Shown: in pieces, positions 5,799-17,593 of the stretch
Numbering within the stretch: the stretch's first letter is position 1
Layout: each line of letters starts with the position of its first letter
Assembly: GCA_020540725.1 (NCBI GenBank)
Contig: JAJBSL010000006.1
Location: 72,060 to 136,059 of the forward strand
Reading direction: 5' to 3'
DNA length: 64,000 bases
DNA from: Lachnospiraceae bacterium EP-SM-12S-S03
Lineage (GTDB): Bacteria > Bacillota > Clostridia > Lachnospirales > Lachnospiraceae
Position numbers and translations under genes: made by a program
Notes under the pieces: generated by a model
The model's database searches: none
What the model was told of the DNA's origin: nothing
Seen by the model: the letters and a program-made list of their open reading frames with translations, nothing else

Positions 5799-8393
5799 TT
5801 ATTCCGTCGTTTCTGACTGCTGTGTCTGCACTTTTGCCTCTTCTTCTCCCAGAGGTTTTTCTAACTCCGTTTTTTCTGCTTTCGGACGAATCCGCGGAAA
5901 ACTAATGGTTACTTTAAATAAATCTCCATCCACATACAGCTTGAATTCTCCGCCCTGCATCTTTGTTAAATTCTGGGCTATAGAAAGTCCAAGTCCGCTT
6001 CCTTCTGTAGTTCTTGATACATCTCCTCTTGTAAAACGTTCCATCAGTTCGTCCGCAGTAATATTCAGCGGATACTCCGATACATTTTTCAAAGACAAGA
6101 GAACAATATTCTTATTCATTGAGAGATCTACATACACTCTTGTTCCCGGCATAGCATATTTTGCCGCATTATTGTAAATATTCTCAATTACCCGCCACAT
6201 CCGGCGTCCATCCACTCTCACAACAGCCGGTTCCTCCGGAACGGTTACAACTGCTGTCAGATTCCGTTTCTCAAACTTCTCGGTAAATTCTCCCGTTGTC
6301 TGATGGATCATTTCCACCAGGTTCAGATTCACAAATTCGAGATTAATATTTCCGGAACTGATTTTGGAAGCCTCCACAACATCTTCCGTCAGGGTCTTAA
6401 GCCTCTGTGACTTCTGATCCAGTATATCCAAATACCTCTGAATTCTCGGATTATCAAAATGTTCCTGTTTCAAAAGGCCTACATAGTTAATAATTGATGT
6501 AAGCGGTGTCTTGATATCATGAGAAACGTTGGTAATCAAATCCGTCTTCAATCTTTCGTCTTTCAGACTCTTCTCCACCGCATTTTGGATTCCTTCTCCG
6601 ATGTGATTGACCATTTCTGCCATATCTTTATTATCACCGGTGAGATTATCCAAAGGAATCTTATATTCCGTATCTCCTGATGCAATCTTCATAAGCCCTT
6701 TTTTGATCCGTGTACGTTCAATGGCAAGTTTTGCAAGACGGAGCACGGATGCAATATCTACGATCATTGCAAGAAGGACGAAAAATCCACTTCCTGTCAG
6801 CACCATAAAGTTTACAAGGAAAAGAACAACTGATGTTATGATAAGTTTAGTAATACTGGTTCTGTTCTGCCAGATATATTTTATCATTCGGCAAATCCAT
6901 TTTGTAATGCTGTTCCTCCAAAGAGTTTTGGCTTTCAGTACCCTTACCAAGCTCAAATATACCGTCAGCACACACGCACATGCCATAGCCGCCGCAACTC
7001 CGAATACTGCAACTGTTTCCGTGGAAAACTGTCCGTTTTTCACGATCTGATCCCAGTTAATCATATAACCATCGACAAGATTTACCGGAAATGCAACACT
7101 TAAGGAAATGGCGATCATGAGGCACAGCCAAACTTCTGTTTTCCATTTATCAAAAAACATAAGTTTAATTTTTTCCTCTCCGTTACTGTGACCTGCCACA
7201 GCAGTAAGCCAAATCAGACATACGAGGAAAATAAGCACAGATAAACTTCCGATTACGATCACCTGATCTACCCATGGCATATATTTCGTATAGGAATAAT
7301 TCTGCTCATAGAACTCATCCTGTATCGGGTAAGACGTATCCACCGCAATGAGAAAACGATAATTGTCTGGATTTCCTTTCAATTCCACAACCATGTGTTT
7401 CCAACTGGACAAGGATATATTCTCAGAAGACAGATTCGTTTTACACTCTGCAAGTGTCGGTGCGATCATCACATATTTTCCTTTGGAAGTGATCGTCTCA
7501 AAATCTGCACCCATCAAAGCCGCTGCATCTGTGTTTTCATACTCTTTGATATTGGTCTCAACTTCACCGGTATCACCGTTGGCATATAAATAGGAAATAT
7601 TGGAATCCCCATTGGCATACATATCGCTCAATTCCAGATAGGTGGAGTAATAATCTCCCAAAACACTCGCAGCGCTACTAATAGAAGAAAACATCTCATA
7701 GAGTCTTCCATTCCATTTCTCCGACTCATTGGCAAGTTCCATCATAGATTTCCCGGATACTGTTTTTAAACTTCCGTAAATCTCATTTTCCATATACCAG
7801 ACAGACGAATACACCTGGTTACCGTCTTTATCCAATACTTCCCCCTGTGGAGGAACCTGCATATCGAGCATATCAGATAATATTTCTTCTGTCTCAAATC
7901 CACTGTCTTCCTCTTCCGGGAACCGATATCCTTTCTGTCTTACTTCATTTACAAATTCCTCTTCCGTTAAATATCGGTACTTCAATTCGTTCTTCGGTGT
8001 TTCGCACACAAGAACATACAGATCTCCCGTACTATACAAAGTCGTTAGATCTCCCAGTTTAAAACTAAGATCTCCCGGTGTCGCAGCAATTGTCTTATCT
8101 TTGTCAAACTGCTCCACATCCACTACTTTGTTCGGATCATACTTTCCTTCTGTCAAGAGTACATTCTTCCATGTTGCCATGTTCAGAATATTCAATCCGG
8201 TCTCCTGCAGTTTCTTGGCAAATCCTCTTGTGTCTTCATACTTATCATTCTGCTTGTTAAAGAAAATCTGTCCGTAATTCTGTCCCGGATAAACGAGTCC
8301 GATCACAAGACAAACCGCCAAAGCGGCTGCAGAAATATGGGCTGCCAAAACAAGGAGCCCTTTACACAAAGGAGATTGATACCATTTTTTCAT
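5799..8393 (-). CDS. Multi-spanning membrane sensor histidine kinase
   Basis: 864 residues. A first membrane segment at about 13-35 is followed by a long external domain (36-370) and then several further membrane segments between about 372 and 560 (for example VIVIGSLSVLIFLVCLIW and LIITSVVLFLVNFMVL). A cytoplasmic HisKA domain carries NVSHDIKTPLTS with the phospho-acceptor His near 625. The ATP-binding domain shows NIYNNAAKYA near 740 and GSGLGLSIAQNL near 801. All catalytic boxes are present, so it should phosphorylate the response regulator encoded 12 bases upstream in the same operon. The ATG is preceded by AAGGAG at five-base spacing. The signal it senses is unknown; the large external domain is the likely input. 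Confidence 0.93.
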   Translation of the reverse strand: MKKWYQSPLCKGLLVLAAHISAAALAVCLVIGLVYPGQNYGQIFFNKQNDKYEDTRGFAKKLQETGLNILNMATWKNVLLTEGKYDPNKVVDVEQFDKDKTIAATPGDLSFKLGDLTTLYSTGDLYVLVCETPKNELKYRYLTEEEFVNEVRQKGYRFPEEEDSGFETEEILSDMLDMQVPPQGEVLDKDGNQVYSSVWYMENEIYGSLKTVSGKSMMELANESEKWNGRLYEMFSSISSAASVLGDYYSTYLELSDMYANGDSNISYLYANGDTGEVETNIKEYENTDAAALMGADFETITSKGKYVMIAPTLAECKTNLSSENISLSSWKHMVVELKGNPDNYRFLIAVDTSYPIQDEFYEQNYSYTKYMPWVDQVIVIGSLSVLIFLVCLIWLTAVAGHSNGEEKIKLMFFDKWKTEVWLCLMIAISLSVAFPVNLVDGYMINWDQIVKNGQFSTETVAVFGVAAAMACACVLTVYLSLVRVLKAKTLWRNSITKWICRMIKYIWQNRTSITKLIITSVVLFLVNFMVLTGSGFFVLLAMIVDIASVLRLAKLAIERTRIKKGLMKIASGDTEYKIPLDNLTGDNKDMAEMVNHIGEGIQNAVEKSLKDERLKTDLITNVSHDIKTPLTSIINYVGLLKQEHFDNPRIQRYLDILDQKSQRLKTLTEDVVEASKISSGNINLEFVNLNLVEMIHQTTGEFTEKFEKRNLTAVVTVPEEPAVVRVDGRRMWRVIENIYNNAAKYAMPGTRVYVDLSMNKNIVLLSLKNVSEYPLNITADELMERFTRGDVSRTTEGSGLGLSIAQNLTKMQGGEFKLYVDGDLFKVTISFPRIRPKAEKTELEKPLGEEEAKVQTQQSETTE

Positions 8394-8405
8394 ATAGACT
8401 CCTTC

Positions 8406-9101
8406 CTAAAGTTTTTCTATCTTATATCCGACTCCCCATACTACCTTCAAATAACGAGGTTCCTTTGGATTGATCTCAATCTTTTCACGGATATGGCGGA
8501 TATGCACCGCCACAGTATTATCCGCTCCGATCGCATCCTCATTCCAAATATTTTCATAAATCTGGTCAATAGAAAATACTTTCCCCTGATTTTTTACTAA
8601 CAGTAACAAAATATTATATTCAATAGGTGTAAGTTTCACGGTTTCCCCGTCAACTGTTACCTCTTTCAAGTCATCATCAATCGTTAATCCGCCCACTGTA
8701 TATATGGATTTCTTTGTATCCATTACCGTACTTCCAAGCTTCGTGTATCGGCGGATCTGAGATTTCACTCTCGCCACCAGCTCTAACGGATTAAACGGTT
8801 TCGTTACATAATCATCCGCACCTACATTTAATCCGAGAATCTTATCTGCATCTTCTGATTTTGCAGATAAAATAATGATCGGCAGGCTGTTCTCTTCACG
8901 AATCTTAAGTGTTGCCCTGATGCCGTCAAGTCTCGGCATCATCACATCAATTACAAGTAAATCTACGTTCTCTTGCTTTAATACTTTCAGTGCCTCTTCG
9001 CCGTCATAGGCCTTAAGCACATGATACCCCTCCTGTGTCAAATATATTTCAATTGCTTCTACGATTTCTTTGTCATCATCACATACTAAAATATTAAACA
9101 T
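8406..9101 (-). CDS. OmpR/PhoB-family response regulator
   Basis: 231 residues from the preferred ATG at 9101, which has GGGAGG eight bases upstream; a TTG at 9128 and an ATG at 9107 are possible but badly spaced. The receiver domain has the acidic pocket DDD (8-10), the phospho-acceptor Asp52 in LLVIDVMMPRLDG and the conserved Lys in YVTKPF. A C-terminal winged-helix domain carries LTPIEYNILLLLVKNQGKVF and HIRHIREKIE. It is the partner of the kinase at 5799-8393. The region shared with the divergent citrate synthase gene contains CTTAA and TTTAA half-sites 11 bases apart (9167 and 9178), the sort of direct repeat this family binds, so autoregulation is plausible. Confidence 0.95.
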   Translation of the reverse strand: MFNILVCDDDKEIVEAIEIYLTQEGYHVLKAYDGEEALKVLKQENVDLLVIDVMMPRLDGIRATLKIREENSLPIIILSAKSEDADKILGLNVGADDYVTKPFNPLELVARVKSQIRRYTKLGSTVMDTKKSIYTVGGLTIDDDLKEVTVDGETVKLTPIEYNILLLLVKNQGKVFSIDQIYENIWNEDAIGADNTVAVHIRHIREKIEINPKEPRYLKVVWGVGYKIEKL

Positions 9102-9166
9102 TTTCATCACCTCCCTTGTAGTATACAAGATTAGCAGAGAATTTTTAAGAGCCCACAGCGAAATTT

Positions 9167-9182
9167 CTTAAATCTTTTTTAA
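9167..9182. promoter_or_regulatory. Possible response-regulator direct-repeat box
   Basis: CTTAA at 9167-9171 and TTTAA at 9178-9182 are exactly 11 bases apart, one helical turn, between the response regulator gene and citrate synthase. A very similar arrangement (CTTAA at 17356 and 17367) lies upstream of the second sRNA copy. OmpR-family regulators bind such repeats; the assignment is inference. Confidence 0.3.
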
Positions 9183-14241: not shown

Positions 14242-14344
14242 TCATGCATTTTATTTATGGGGGATTTATGTATTCTTAATATTTTTTCGATTTCCTTAAG
14301 ATATTGCACATACTTTAGACACATTTTCCCTATATACTAAGAGT

Positions 14345-14470
14345 CAGATAGTTGATAAAACAACTATCACCCCCCTCATAAAGTAAAACACATCCCTGTG
14401 ACGGGATGCAAACTTTACTCTCATTCCTTTAAATTAATGAAAAACCTGCCGGCAAAACCGGCAGGTTTTT
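14345..14470 (+). ncRNA. Candidate small structured RNA, copy 1 of 2
   Basis: This stretch between the AIM24-like gene and the glutaredoxin-like gene matches 17437-17571 closely but contains no reading frame. Predicted folds are hairpin 1 GATAGTTG/CAACTATC (14347-14354/14361-14368), an unpaired C-rich linker with six C (14370-14375), hairpin 2 with AGTAAA/TTTACT (14382-14387/14414-14419) enclosing CATCCC/GGGATG (14391-14396/14403-14408), an unpaired CTCTCATTCCTTTA tail, and an intrinsic terminator CCTGCCGG/CCGGCAGG plus T5 (14445-14470). A -10-like TATACT (14333-14338) precedes it, with a conserved TTTAGACA at 14314-14321. The helix pairs CATCCC/GGGATG here but CATCCTG/CAGGATG in copy 2, a compensatory change. 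I do not recognise it as a named family. Confidence 0.7.
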
Positions 14471-14549
14471 CATATGCATTTTTATTTTCGTATCTCCTTG
14501 ATTTTCACATCTTCTCGTGATATAGTCGTTTAAAAGGAGGTATCGCACT

Positions 14550-14810
14550 ATGAAAGTAATCATGTACGGGACAAATGCATGTCCGGATTGTGTAAATGCA
14601 GAAAATACTTTAAAAGAGAACAATATCCAGTATCTTTACCTGGATTGGACAAATAGCATAGGAAACTTAAAACGCTTTTTAAAACTTCGGGATACGAATC
14701 CACTGTTTGATGATGCCAAAAACACGGGATCTGTAGGAATTCCGTGTTTTCAGCTAGAAGACGGAACACTTACCCTCGATTTAGAAGAAGTATTAAACAA
14801 ACAGTCATAA
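14550..14810 (+). CDS. Glutaredoxin-like thiol protein
   Basis: 86 residues with a thioredoxin fold. The active-site motif near the N-terminus is CPDC (residues 11-14, in MYGTNACPDCVNAE), followed by a Gly-x-x-x-x-Pro region in SVGIPCFQLEDG. The motif differs from the classical CPYC, as in clostridial glutaredoxin-related proteins. AAAGGAGG stands nine bases before the ATG. It follows the first sRNA copy and its terminator by 80 bases, so it probably has its own promoter there or is reached by read-through. A terminator follows at 14834-14873. The partner protein and physiological role are not evident. Confidence 0.85.
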   Translation: MKVIMYGTNACPDCVNAENTLKENNIQYLYLDWTNSIGNLKRFLKLRDTNPLFDDAKNTGSVGIPCFQLEDGTLTLDLEEVLNKQS

Positions 14811-14833
14811 AAGCATTAGTTAAGAGAAAGATT

Positions 14834-14873
14834 AGGGAGGCAGCCACTTCCATAAGTTGCTGCCTCCCTTTTT
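14834..14873 (+). terminator. Terminator after the glutaredoxin-like gene
   Basis: AGGGAGGCAGC (14834-14844) pairs with GCTGCCTCCCT (14859-14869), extended by ACTT/AAGT inside, and is followed by a T run. Confidence 0.88.
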
Positions 14874-14917
14874 AATACCATTCGTTTTCCAATCGTTCTC
14901 TTTCCATCATTCTTCAC

Positions 14918-16087
14918 TTACAGACTAGCTTTTAAAATCTCCACGATTTCCTCATGATCAAGAACCTTATAACCACCATTCATCGTAAATGTAGTATCCG
15001 CAATTGCTTCAATCATATTTTCGTTGGCTCCAAGCTCTGTAATACTCATTACAAGACCTAGTTCTTTCATCCAATTTTCCATCGCTTTCAAACCTTCTTC
15101 AGCAAGCTGGCGGTCATCCTTACCATTTGCTTCAATCCCCCACACATTAACCGCAAAACATTTGAACTTCTCCAATCCGTACTCCATAATATACCGATAA
15201 TAAGGAAGCGATACCGCAGCCAATGTCATGCCATGCGTCGCATTCGTATGCCCACCTACAGATTGACCAAGCATATGCACCATCCAATCTGTTGATTTTC
15301 CTTTTGACACAAGTGTATTCAATGCCCATGTTGCTGTCCACATGATATTGCTTCTAGCCTCATAATCCTGTGGGTTCTTATTCGCAATCCGGCTGGAATG
15401 AATCAAGGACTTCATCAATCCTTCACTGATATAGTCACTTGTGTTGTCATCATCTCCCGAAAAATATTGTTCACAAATATGATTAAAAATATCATAAATA
15501 CCGGAAACCATCTGGTAATGCGGCAATGTCATTGTGTACTTTGGATTTAAAATGGAGAATCTTGGCATAATCTTCTCATCCGCAAATACATGACCTATTT
15601 TCTGTTTTGTCTTTTCATTTGTAATAACTGCACCTGCATTCATTTCGGATCCGGTTCCTACCATAGTAAGTATGCAGCCTACCGGAATACACTCACAATC
15701 CGGCTCTTCAAAACGAAGATAATATTTTTCCCATGGATCTTCCTTGCAATTTACCGATACGGACAGCGCCTTGGAATAATCACATACCGAACCGCCGCCT
15801 ACCGCCAACAATAAATCCGCTTCATGCTTTTTCGCAATCTCAATACCTTCGTATAATTTAGCAAGCGTTGGATTGGGCATGACACCGGAAATCTCTGCAA
15901 TATTTTTCCCGTTTCTATTTAGCAATCCCACAACCGCATCATAAATTCCATTCTCCTTAATGGAACCGCCACCATAAATCAACACCACATTATTCCCGTA
16001 TTTTTGCAATTCCTCGTTTAGATAGTTTAAAGAATCTTCTCCAAAATAAAGTTTTGTAGGATTACAATACATAAAATTTCCAAGCAT
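14918..16087 (-). CDS. Iron-containing alcohol dehydrogenase (butanol-dehydrogenase-like)
   Basis: 389 residues of the group III, iron-dependent alcohol dehydrogenase family, YqhD/BdhA branch, which reduces aldehydes with NAD(P)H. The cofactor-binding GGGS motifs are seen twice (VVLIYGGGSIKENG and AVGGGSVCDYSK). The metal site includes the His residues in YDIFNHICEQYF and in MLGQSVGGHTNATHGMTLA. The start has GGGAG seven bases upstream. The gene is divergent from a MerR regulator and its promoter carries the regulator-type 19-base spacer and dyad (16143-16173), so it is very likely induced by that regulator. The actual aldehyde is unknown. Confidence 0.93.
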   Translation of the reverse strand: MLGNFMYCNPTKLYFGEDSLNYLNEELQKYGNNVVLIYGGGSIKENGIYDAVVGLLNRNGKNIAEISGVMPNPTLAKLYEGIEIAKKHEADLLLAVGGGSVCDYSKALSVSVNCKEDPWEKYYLRFEEPDCECIPVGCILTMVGTGSEMNAGAVITNEKTKQKIGHVFADEKIMPRFSILNPKYTMTLPHYQMVSGIYDIFNHICEQYFSGDDDNTSDYISEGLMKSLIHSSRIANKNPQDYEARSNIMWTATWALNTLVSKGKSTDWMVHMLGQSVGGHTNATHGMTLAAVSLPYYRYIMEYGLEKFKCFAVNVWGIEANGKDDRQLAEEGLKAMENWMKELGLVMSITELGANENMIEAIADTTFTMNGGYKVLDHEEIVEILKASL

Positions 16088-16142
16088 AACTTATCTCCCC
16101 CTAAAATTCAATTTGACATTCTTTTTATATCCTGATAAAATC

Positions 16143-16173
16143 ATGCTAACACCTAAAGCTGACTTTAGGTCAA
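16143..16173 (-). promoter_or_regulatory. MerR-type promoter with dyad operator for the alcohol dehydrogenase
   Basis: Read on the minus strand, TTGACC (16173-16168) and TAGCAT (16148-16143) are separated by 19 bases, two longer than the optimum. The dyad ACCTAAAG/CTTTAGGT (16151-16158/16163-16170) lies almost entirely in the spacer. A 19-base spacer holding a dyad is the hallmark of promoters that MerR proteins untwist to activate. The regulator gene starts 32 bases to the right. Confidence 0.8.
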
Positions 16174-16204
16174 TAGTTTTCTTTTATTTTTTAGGAGGTT
16201 TTTT

Positions 16205-16642
16205 ATGTATACAATTGGACAAGTTTCGGAAATGTTTCATTTACCAATCTCTACCTTGCGATATTATGATAAGGAAGGACTCTTTCCTGAAATACAGCGA
16301 ACCTCAGGAATCCGCAGATTCAGTGAAACAGAGATAGAAGCTTTACGGGTCATTGAATGCCTGAAAAAATCCGGCTTGGAAATCAAAGATATCAAACTTT
16401 TTATGGAATGGTGTAGCGAAGGCAGTAAAACCTATGAAAAGCGATTGGAATTGTTCCTGAAACAAAAAAAGAACGTAGAGGCTGAAATCGAACGGCTGAA
16501 CCAAACACTTGAAATGTTAAATTACAAATGCTGGTACTACTCACAAGCCATTGCCGATGGAAATGAAGACCGGCTGCATGCTATGAATCCGGAAGATATG
16601 CCGGAAGCCATTCGAAAATCTTACCTTCGTGCACACAAGTAG
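16205..16642 (+). CDS. MerR-family transcriptional regulator
   Basis: 145 residues. The N-terminal winged helix shows MYTIGQVSEMFHLPISTLRY and then YDKEGLFPEIQRTSGIRRFS, the standard MerR DNA-binding signature. It is followed by a dimerising coiled coil (about 80-115) and a short C-terminal tail ending in SYLRAHK. There is no cluster of Cys as in metal-sensing MerR members, so it more likely senses an organic or aldehyde signal. AGGAGG is six bases before the ATG. It is divergent from the alcohol dehydrogenase and the operator lies between them. Confidence 0.93.
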   Translation: MYTIGQVSEMFHLPISTLRYYDKEGLFPEIQRTSGIRRFSETEIEALRVIECLKKSGLEIKDIKLFMEWCSEGSKTYEKRLELFLKQKKNVEAEIERLNQTLEMLNYKCWYYSQAIADGNEDRLHAMNPEDMPEAIRKSYLRAHK

Positions 16643-16694
16643 AAGGATGGTGTACTTTACTTTATAGAAAAATCAAACCAGAGGTATAAATCTA

Positions 16695-17339
16695 ATGAAT
16701 ACAACATTGTTTTTTATAATGGAAATCATGGGTACTATAGCATTTTCCTGCTCCGGTGCCATGGTCGCAATACGAAAGAAACTGGACTTTCTTGGTGTAA
16801 TTGTTCTCGGCGTTATTACTGCTGTAGGCGGCGGTATGTTCCGTGATATTCTGATCGGCAACAACCCTCCGGAACTTTTCCGTAATCCGGTATACGTTTG
16901 TGTAGCTGTTGTCGCCGCTGTTTTCATGTTTTTTATTATGCAATCGCGAAAATTGTCTCAAATTTTTATTCAGGCAAAACCTTACGACACAATTATGAAT
17001 CTTTTAGATGCTATCGGACTCGGCGCCTTTACCGTAGTGGGTGTAAATGCTGCTACAAATTCCCCTTATAATCATTATATTTTTCTGACTATTTTCCTTG
17101 GTGTGATTACAGGGGTGGGCGGCGGACTTCTTCGTGATATGATGGTCTGTGAAATTCCATCTATTCTAAAAGAACATATTTATGCCTGTGCTTCTTTGGT
17201 CGGCGCCCTTTTATATGTGTTATCCATGTATTTTGATATTCCAAATATTGGTATTGTTGTCAGCGCTGCAGTTGTGATTATCATTCGTGTCTTATCGCGA
17301 TATTATGATTGGAATCTTCCTCACGGAAGAATTTCATAA
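16695..17339 (+). CDS. Trimeric intracellular cation (TRIC)-type channel, UPF0126/YicG family
   Basis: 214 residues with seven predicted membrane helices arranged as two repeated halves. Each half carries the family glycine motif: GVITAVGGGMFRDILIG near 45 and GVITGVGGGLLRDMMV near 130. Bacterial members form homotrimeric potassium-permeable channels related to animal TRIC proteins. It starts 52 bases after the MerR gene in the same direction, with a modest ribosome site AGAGG. The second sRNA copy begins about 100 bases beyond its stop. Confidence 0.88.
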   Translation: MNTTLFFIMEIMGTIAFSCSGAMVAIRKKLDFLGVIVLGVITAVGGGMFRDILIGNNPPELFRNPVYVCVAVVAAVFMFFIMQSRKLSQIFIQAKPYDTIMNLLDAIGLGAFTVVGVNAATNSPYNHYIFLTIFLGVITGVGGGLLRDMMVCEIPSILKEHIYACASLVGALLYVLSMYFDIPNIGIVVSAAVVIIIRVLSRYYDWNLPHGRIS

Positions 17340-17436
17340 GAGAAATTTTTAATTTCTTAAAGTCTTCTTAAGGAAATTTCGTTTTCTTTTATTGTTAAAA
17401 CATATTTTAGACATATTTCTCTTATATACTAATATC

Positions 17437-17571
17437 AAGATAGTTGATAAACAACTATCGCCCCCCTCATAAAGTAAAACACATCCTGGTAACAGGATGT
17501 CGCACTTTACTCTCATTCCTTTAGATAATAAGTAAACCCGAAACCCGCTAGCCCTTGTGGTTAGCGGGTTT
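17437..17571 (+). ncRNA. Candidate small structured RNA, copy 2 of 2
   Basis: This is the same architecture as 14345-14470. Hairpin 1 is GATAGTTG/CAACTATC (17439-17446/17452-17459), followed by six C (17461-17466). Hairpin 2 has AGTAAA/TTTACT (17473-17478/17506-17511) enclosing CATCCTG/CAGGATG (17482-17488/17493-17499). The same CTCTCATTCCTTTA tail follows, then a terminator AACCCGCTA/TAGCGGGTT with T residues (17542-17572) whose sequence is unrelated to that of copy 1. The promoter block TTTAGACA (17406-17413), 11 bases, TATACT (17425-17430) is conserved with identical spacing. The next gene is convergent, so this is not a leader of a downstream gene. Confidence 0.72.
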
Positions 17572-17593
17572 TCGCTGTGTGTACATTTCAATA

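Follow-up and report, generated by a model that had tools for sequence, protein, structure and literature searches.

Passages of PMC3091779 and PMC8186281 describe the csRNAs of Streptococcus as sibling small RNAs (sRNAs) that are activated by CiaRH through TTTAAG-N5-TTTAAG with an 11-bp spacing and that carry two hairpins with an unpaired anti-Shine-Dalgarno and CAU region between them. LhrC of Listeria, as presented in part of PMC5880928, consists of seven sibling sRNAs, most of them LisRK-activated, and works by an antisense mechanism. For RoxS, part of PMC4409812 gives C-rich single-stranded regions, a ResD/SrrA site near -65 and pairing with Shine-Dalgarno sequences. Herein, we report an sRNA family of Lachnospiraceae that appears to resemble csRNAs, LhrC and RoxS in design and that, by its scores, falls outside RsaE/RoxS and FsrA. 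Two of its genes, each read from promoter to predicted terminator, lie in a stretch of 64,000 nucleotides from Lachnospiraceae bacterium EP-SM-12S-S03 (contig JAJBSL010000006.1), which is called the window below. The family is real and widespread; apparently no catalogue lists it, and it is new as a family but of a kind already known.

The likeness to the csRNAs, as those passages describe them, lies in the sibling sRNAs, the probable activation by an OmpR-type two-component system and a TTAAG direct repeat with an 11-bp period. The promoters differ, however. The TTAAG repeat stands about 52 nt upstream of the -10 here (profile of 151 copies) versus 10 nt in the csRNA prediction, and a second repeat covers the -35 in the Lachnospiraceae sRNA promoters. 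LhrC is alike in its sibling sRNAs and, probably, in the activation by a two-component system; this likeness is by description from the cited part, and the Rfam scans bear on it indirectly. RoxS/RsaE, as described in part of its source, shares the C-rich single-stranded regions and, probably, the two-component regulator, whereas many genomes carry two or more copies of the Lachnospiraceae sRNA.

Window copies and selection on RNA structure

Covariance model R1 was built from 30 similar copies (alignment A3), and its seed alignment includes both window copies. Over the 64-kb window, R1 scored the two copies at 97.5 and 88.8 bits, and the next match reached 18.5 bits. The two predicted genes are as follows.

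14345 to 14473, forward strand: sRNA copy 1, from inferred start to terminator end (R1 88.8 bits; fold z -8.4)
17437 to 17572, forward strand: sRNA copy 2, from inferred start to terminator end (R1 97.5 bits; fold z -7.5)

Each copy contains, in this order, hairpin 1, single-stranded CCCCCCUCAU, a two-part hairpin 2 and CUCUCAUUCCUUUA. Hairpin 1 is formed by GATAGTTG/CAACTATC, located at 14347-14354/14361-14368 in copy 1 and at 17439-17446/17452-17459 in copy 2. The six-C linker lies within CCCCCCTCAT (14370-14379 and 17461-17470), and CTCTCATTCCTTTA is found at 14418-14431 and 17510-17523. The first-pass annotation had described two intergenic segments with a common hairpin, a six-C linker, a two-part hairpin and a tail, which was confirmed by reading and by alignment. 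Direct reading also verified its statement that the upper helix changes with pairing kept, from CATCCC/GGGATG (14391-14396/14403-14408) in copy 1 to CATCCTG/CAGGATG (17482-17488/17493-17499) in copy 2, while the terminators have unrelated sequences at similar positions. In both copies, the inferred RNA start is 7-8 nt downstream of the TATACT -10, and an intrinsic terminator is predicted at the end. None of 200 dinucleotide shuffles was as stable as either copy (z -8.4 and -7.5), and the same was true with slightly different ends (z -10.7 and -7.2; again 0 of 200). CCCCCCUCAU and CUCUCAUUCC are unpaired in the predicted folds.

Covariation between two copies is thin evidence alone. Selection on the RNA helices, which had been proposed in place of a recent copy, is established by the 134 matches in the R1 alignment, which come from 100 of 254 sources and include two copies that end at a contig end. 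Pairing cells reached 95.7% in this alignment, compared with 84.8% after shuffling and 34-42% with the partner slid. The helices covary among the homologues, with two-sided changes in 16 of 24 pairs, including all 10 pairs of the apical helix. GATAG/CTATC and AAAGT/ACTTT are nearly constant and little informative alone. Since the R1 alignment was fitted to the structure, an unaligned list matters here: complementary arms of different sequence recur in a separate plain list of 134 inserts, namely those fitting a narrower pattern. A recent copy or a mobile repeat was rejected because the helices covary and the terminators differ. In distant short copies, hairpin 1 is replaced, as in L233 with ATCGTTAAA...TTTAACGAT placed 5' of CCCCCCCTCATAA.

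Two other readings of the sequence were dropped or disfavoured. Pairing of the hairpin 1 5' arm with a distal AACTAT was dropped because the arm changes to AGATAGAT in L111 while the distal AACTAT stays the same. The insert between AAAGT and ACTTT measures 17 to 37 nt with nearly all lengths represented; judged by insert length, a conserved reading frame, and with it a peptide-coding gene, is disfavoured.

Most long copies also have a conserved AGATAACTATAA 3' of the CUCUCAUUCC segment (consensus of alignment A2, described below). A stretch like it is found at 14431-14446 and 17523-17538, and both window copies deviate from the consensus. AGATAACTATAA resembles the hairpin 1 3' arm, but it does not change alongside the 5' arm in L111.

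Distribution and forms of the family

The two conserved single-stranded segments, searched as one pattern, occur in at least 118 genome-contig stretches, with 147 matches within these 118. Their titles mostly name Lachnospiraceae or its genera, with a few general names; Mediterraneibacter, Dorea, Coprococcus comes, [Ruminococcus] torques, Faecalicatena, Claveliimonas, Extibacter and others are taken by us to be Lachnospiraceae. Four contigs from a virus collection (L119-L122) also carry a copy, in viral sequence or in bacterial flank. In L001-L122, CCCCCTCAT and CTCTCATTCCTTT do not vary because the search pattern demanded them, and model matches vary more.

The covariance models extended the search to whole genomes. 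Alignment A2 (40 diverse copies) was left out of model building because its apical helix was out of register. R1 was positive in all 10 genomes from which loci had been taken. It was also positive in 50 of 299 genomes from the family of the genome with the [Ruminococcus] torques locus (G002), with 1 to 4 matches per genome; several of the positive genomes have copies within a few kb of each other. A second model, R2, consists of the promoter, hairpin 1 and the C-run; of 392 genomes of the order, 72 were positive. Because G179 at least was matched through a copy of the third RNA type described below, 72 is not a pure count of long and short forms. In a class sample that overlaps the order, 6 of 291 genomes were positive, all six already found in the order. 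Searches of more than 40 genomes ran with stricter filters that may miss weak members, and the weakest listed matches were read only in part. Together with the alignment, these searches support the first-pass view of a structured RNA that has its own promoter and terminator and is under selection on its helices, and they place it in many Lachnospiraceae.

Most of the weak R1 matches that were fetched represent a short form, in which hairpin 1 and CCCCCCUCA(UAA) are followed directly by the terminator; the remaining ones (L193, L196-L200) are long copies. Altogether, 173 distinct long copies and 41 short or otherwise different copies were collected. Of 263 long copies (overlapping loci included), 242 have a terminator-like hairpin with a T-run at most 110 nt downstream. 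Among the 39 R2 loci read (L201-L239), 37 have the C-run plus TCA at the match, and L217 has the variant CCCCCCTCTTA.

Promoters, candidate regulator and a third RNA type

The promoters and the genes considered as their regulator are located in the window as follows.

14308 to 14338, forward strand: promoter 1, direct repeat ACATA-N6-ACACA at 14308-14326 and -10 TATACT at 14333-14338
17400 to 17430, forward strand: promoter 2, direct repeat at 17400-17418 and -10 TATACT at 17425-17430
14275 to 14301, forward strand: upstream element of copy 1, degenerate CTTAATATTTTTTCGATTTCCTTAAGA, placed by position in the 151-copy profile
17357 to 17380, forward strand: TTAAA-N6-TTAAGGAAATTTC, the corresponding element ahead of copy 2 and a putative site of the response regulator
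9159 to 9182, reverse strand: TTAAA-N6-TTAAGAAATTTCG, in front of the response-regulator gene and matching the sRNA upstream element
8406 to 9128, reverse strand: OmpR-family response regulator, putative activator, with Pfam Response_reg and Trans_reg_C; its orthologs adjoin sRNAs
5799 to 8393, reverse strand: sensor histidine kinase of 864 aa, without a Pfam domain before residue 616

The upstream profile was made from 151 of 153 pattern matches anchored on AGATAG, with L065 and L110 left out for want of the anchor; one further count kept 149 distinct of the 153. The -10 is conserved as TATA(C/A)T, the consensus -35 is absent, and the 11-bp direct repeat ACATA-N6-ACACA is found instead. Farther upstream are TTAAG-N6-TTAAG and then AAATTTTCG and TTTCTTTTA. 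The repeat plus -10 fits 185 of 213 distinct promoters, and its rate in shuffled sequences is 0. A strict promoter search of 17 member-holding genomes gave 14 sites in 12 genomes, and the reversed control pattern gave 0. A family member was located directly 3' of all 14 sites, 13 by pattern and one (L247, with a variant core) by eye.

Three kinds of evidence, namely a shared element, adjacency and co-occurrence, indicate that an OmpR-family two-component system probably activates the sRNA promoters, a conclusion that is well supported but indirect. For the element, a matrix was derived from 190 sRNA upstream regions, each free of a regulator start out to 1.5 kb as far as its stretch reaches; short stretches may hide farther ones. 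It was then applied to 40 distinct regulator promoters without an sRNA within 700 nt, with 1110 open reading frame (ORF) upstream regions as controls. Above the 95th percentile of the controls were 33 of the 40, and 28 were above the 99th (p = 7e-19). The element at 9159-9182 in the window reached the 99.2nd percentile. Of 16 regulator promoters with an sRNA nearby, 14 exceeded the 95th and 13 the 99th percentile. Compared with dinucleotide shuffles, 36 of the 40 were at 5% or better. The best site lies 50-60 nt before the start in 21 of the 40, where 8.8% is expected.

Regulator orthologs (at least 70% identity) occur in 26 of the 118 listed stretches (862,893 bases), among which syntenic relatives are not independent. 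The sRNA and the regulator gene are divergent with one common intergenic region in L064, L038 and L251, and the sRNA is directly upstream of the regulator gene in L019 and L157/L202. Among the 392 genomes of the order, 39 have both the regulator and an R2 match, 33 the sRNA only, 22 the regulator only, and 298 neither. The odds ratio is 16 (p 9e-19), a statistic that ignores kinship, and regulator presence was set at E 1.7e-112 or better, a line drawn after the list was known.

By its recognition helix, the regulator is not CiaR. The region of this helix is NTVAVHIRHIREKI in the window, versus VVEVYVSKVRKKL in the excerpted CiaR sequence, and no CiaR model stands among the best 25 NCBIfam matches of the window regulator. 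VanR-type models rank first, below their cut-offs. In the window sensor kinase, about 600 residues before HisKA have no Pfam match. Kinase orthologs beside sRNAs are about 29-42% identical over long stretches, and the regulators there are 77-89% identical.

With an E limit of 0.1, R2 gave weak matches in 14 of the 22 regulator-only genomes. Eight such loci (L288, L290, L291, L293-L297) contain a third RNA type with AAAGC-UUUUUCAUACUCAUACC, a GC-rich hairpin and a C-run (CCCCCCU), and most of them also have a 5' hairpin and a similar promoter. With G608 picked as a known positive, TTTTTCATACTCATACC was found at 23 sites in 19 of 200 genomes of its family, and the reversed pattern at 0. The third-type loci comprise L288, L290, L291, L293-L297 and L300-L319. 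Of 25 occurrences read, two of them seen twice, all have the C-run downstream, and 12 fit the promoter expression, against a background of 0.75%. The regulator is present in all 19 third-type genomes at 72-81% identity. An R2 match at L237:1440-1640 combines a promoter-like repeat and a short hairpin with CTCCCCCAAC and TTTTTTCATACC; it is neither the long nor the short form and looks nearer to the third type. New relative to the first-pass annotation are a likely two-component regulator, a short form of the RNA and a third sRNA type with a similar promoter.

A wider reading is that one two-component system has a C-rich sRNA set as its main output. Its members would have similar promoters and come in three architectures (long, short and the CAUACUCAUACC type), with scaffolds exchanged between lineages and seeds conserved rather than folds. 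This reading is tentative and falls short of an even chance. If it is true, a dominant gut family would have an as yet undescribed RNA regulon that can be compared with the csRNAs.

Proposed mechanism and alternatives

The mechanism that we moderately favour is one in which an OmpR-type system activates sibling sRNA genes together with its own gene, and the RNAs repress mRNAs by pairing. Judged by sequence and conservation, each sibling gene would be transcribed from its own promoter to its intrinsic terminator. The two-component system at 5799-9128 would bind TTAAG-type repeats at the putative sites, and the response regulator would activate the sRNA promoters and its own gene, as the shared element, adjacency and co-occurrence suggest. 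In the predicted fold, the RNA of about 130 nt would display CCCCCCUCAU and CUCUCAUUCC as single strands held open by hairpins. These two segments probably pair with purine-rich translation-initiation regions, by analogy to the csRNAs and RoxS, and may thereby repress several mRNAs.

Several results weigh against this mechanism. Seven of the 40 regulator promoters fall below the 95th percentile of the controls, and the upstream element of copy 1 is degenerate and was not recovered by a 3-mismatch scan. At the post hoc threshold and with kinship ignored, 33 of the 72 sRNA-positive genomes are without the regulator. The promoter feature most specific to the sRNAs, ACATA-N6-ACACA, was missing from the regulator promoters read. 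The target test, in which duplex energies of each seed were compared between 400 of 520 initiation regions and internal regions, is weak: 3 of 40 shuffled seeds for seed 1 and 4 of 40 for seed 2 had as strong a preference for initiation regions.

In one rival, the sRNAs are real but are not activated by the neighbouring two-component system; another factor would bind ACATA-N6-ACACA, and the TTAAG element would be common to A+T-rich promoters of these genomes in general. This rival gains from the restriction of ACATA-N6-ACACA to the sRNA side in the promoters read, and from a co-occurrence computed without regard to kinship. It is nevertheless unlikely. The transfer of the motif beats both control ORF upstream regions and dinucleotide shuffles and has a preferred spacing, and the regulator is present in 19 of 19 third-type genomes.

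The target test touches a second rival, in which the RNA is a decoy that titrates an RNA-binding protein through the C-run and CUCAU, like CsrB or 6S RNA. The nearly invariant segments among freely changing helices would suit a decoy, as would the weak target test. However, a repeated protein-binding hairpin motif was not noticed, and the arrangement fits the base-pairing sRNAs of Firmicutes as the cited passages present them; we consider the decoy quite improbable. For the pairing mechanism, the trans-acting anti-Shine-Dalgarno reading of the first-pass annotation held in part, in that the segments are conserved and predicted unpaired, whereas its duplex support is as weak as stated. The strongest duplexes in the 520 initiation regions gave no repeated gene among the matches listed and no convincing target. 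The third-type motif had no preference for initiation regions, with 30 of 40 shuffled seeds as good.

Known families were compared through Rfam release 15. At gathering score, there was no match in the window or at the family copies in 11 further loci and then 13 more (5 short-form, 8 third-type), and no match on the RNA itself in the 8 third-type loci. The first-pass annotation had not recognised the family, in agreement with these scans. The only gathering match in the further loci is outside the sRNA copies: a skipping-rope RNA (RF02924, 74.1 bits) at L308:1708-1785 on the reverse strand, between two third-type copies on the same strand. At a loose threshold, RsaE (RF01820) scored best on copy 1, with 26.9 bits versus a gathering score of 79. 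A divergent member of RsaE/RoxS could be argued from this rank and from the alignment, in which a hairpin plus UUUACUCUCAUUCCUUU is set against UUUCUCCCAUCCCCUUUGU. Membership is very improbable given that score; 12 other short sources, including six long copies, were also scanned, and RsaE was absent from their matches at E up to 0.5. FsrA (RF02273) is alike in its C-rich single-stranded segments and scores below its gathering score of 80 on both strands of copy 1, with 23.3 bits sense and 26.0 bits antisense over the terminator. 6C RNA and CsfG also have C-rich single-stranded segments; neither appears by name among the 29 Rfam matches of copy 1 at E up to 10, where Rfam names may differ. 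The proposed likeness to RsaE/RoxS would be one of design; membership in RsaE/RoxS is not supported.

Least probable is a cis-acting leader, attenuator or riboswitch, for which speak the structured RNA with a terminator at its end and the same-strand gene at 14550 after copy 1, and which was rejected because, of 235 downstream genes (overlapping loci included), 80 are on the same strand and 155 on the opposite one, and because the neighbours change between loci, the gene 3' of copy 2 being on the other strand.

By titles and abstracts, no Lachnospiraceae sRNA family was found in the open-licence literature, and the conserved segments were not found printed there, supplementary files being outside the scope of both searches. 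Thousands of structured RNAs were predicted from human microbiomes in PMC8040213. No word beginning with Lachnospir, Dorea, Ruminococcus or Blautia stands in its main text, and the family could be among the unnamed candidates of its tables.

The proposed system matters in several respects. Lachnospiraceae are among the commonest human gut bacteria, and an sRNA with several copies and a conserved structure, linked to a single sensor system, would give a direct entry to post-transcriptional control in this group. Named culturable carriers are available, including [Ruminococcus] torques, Coprococcus comes, Dorea, Faecalicatena and Claveliimonas. The family also allows a test of whether sibling sRNAs under two-component systems arose repeatedly in Firmicutes.

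Among the neighbouring genes, the same-strand gene 5' of the sRNA is often a GH25 lysozyme with LysM domains (78 proteins, 56 loci) and also often Spo0A (27 proteins, 26 loci), overlapping loci being included in both counts.

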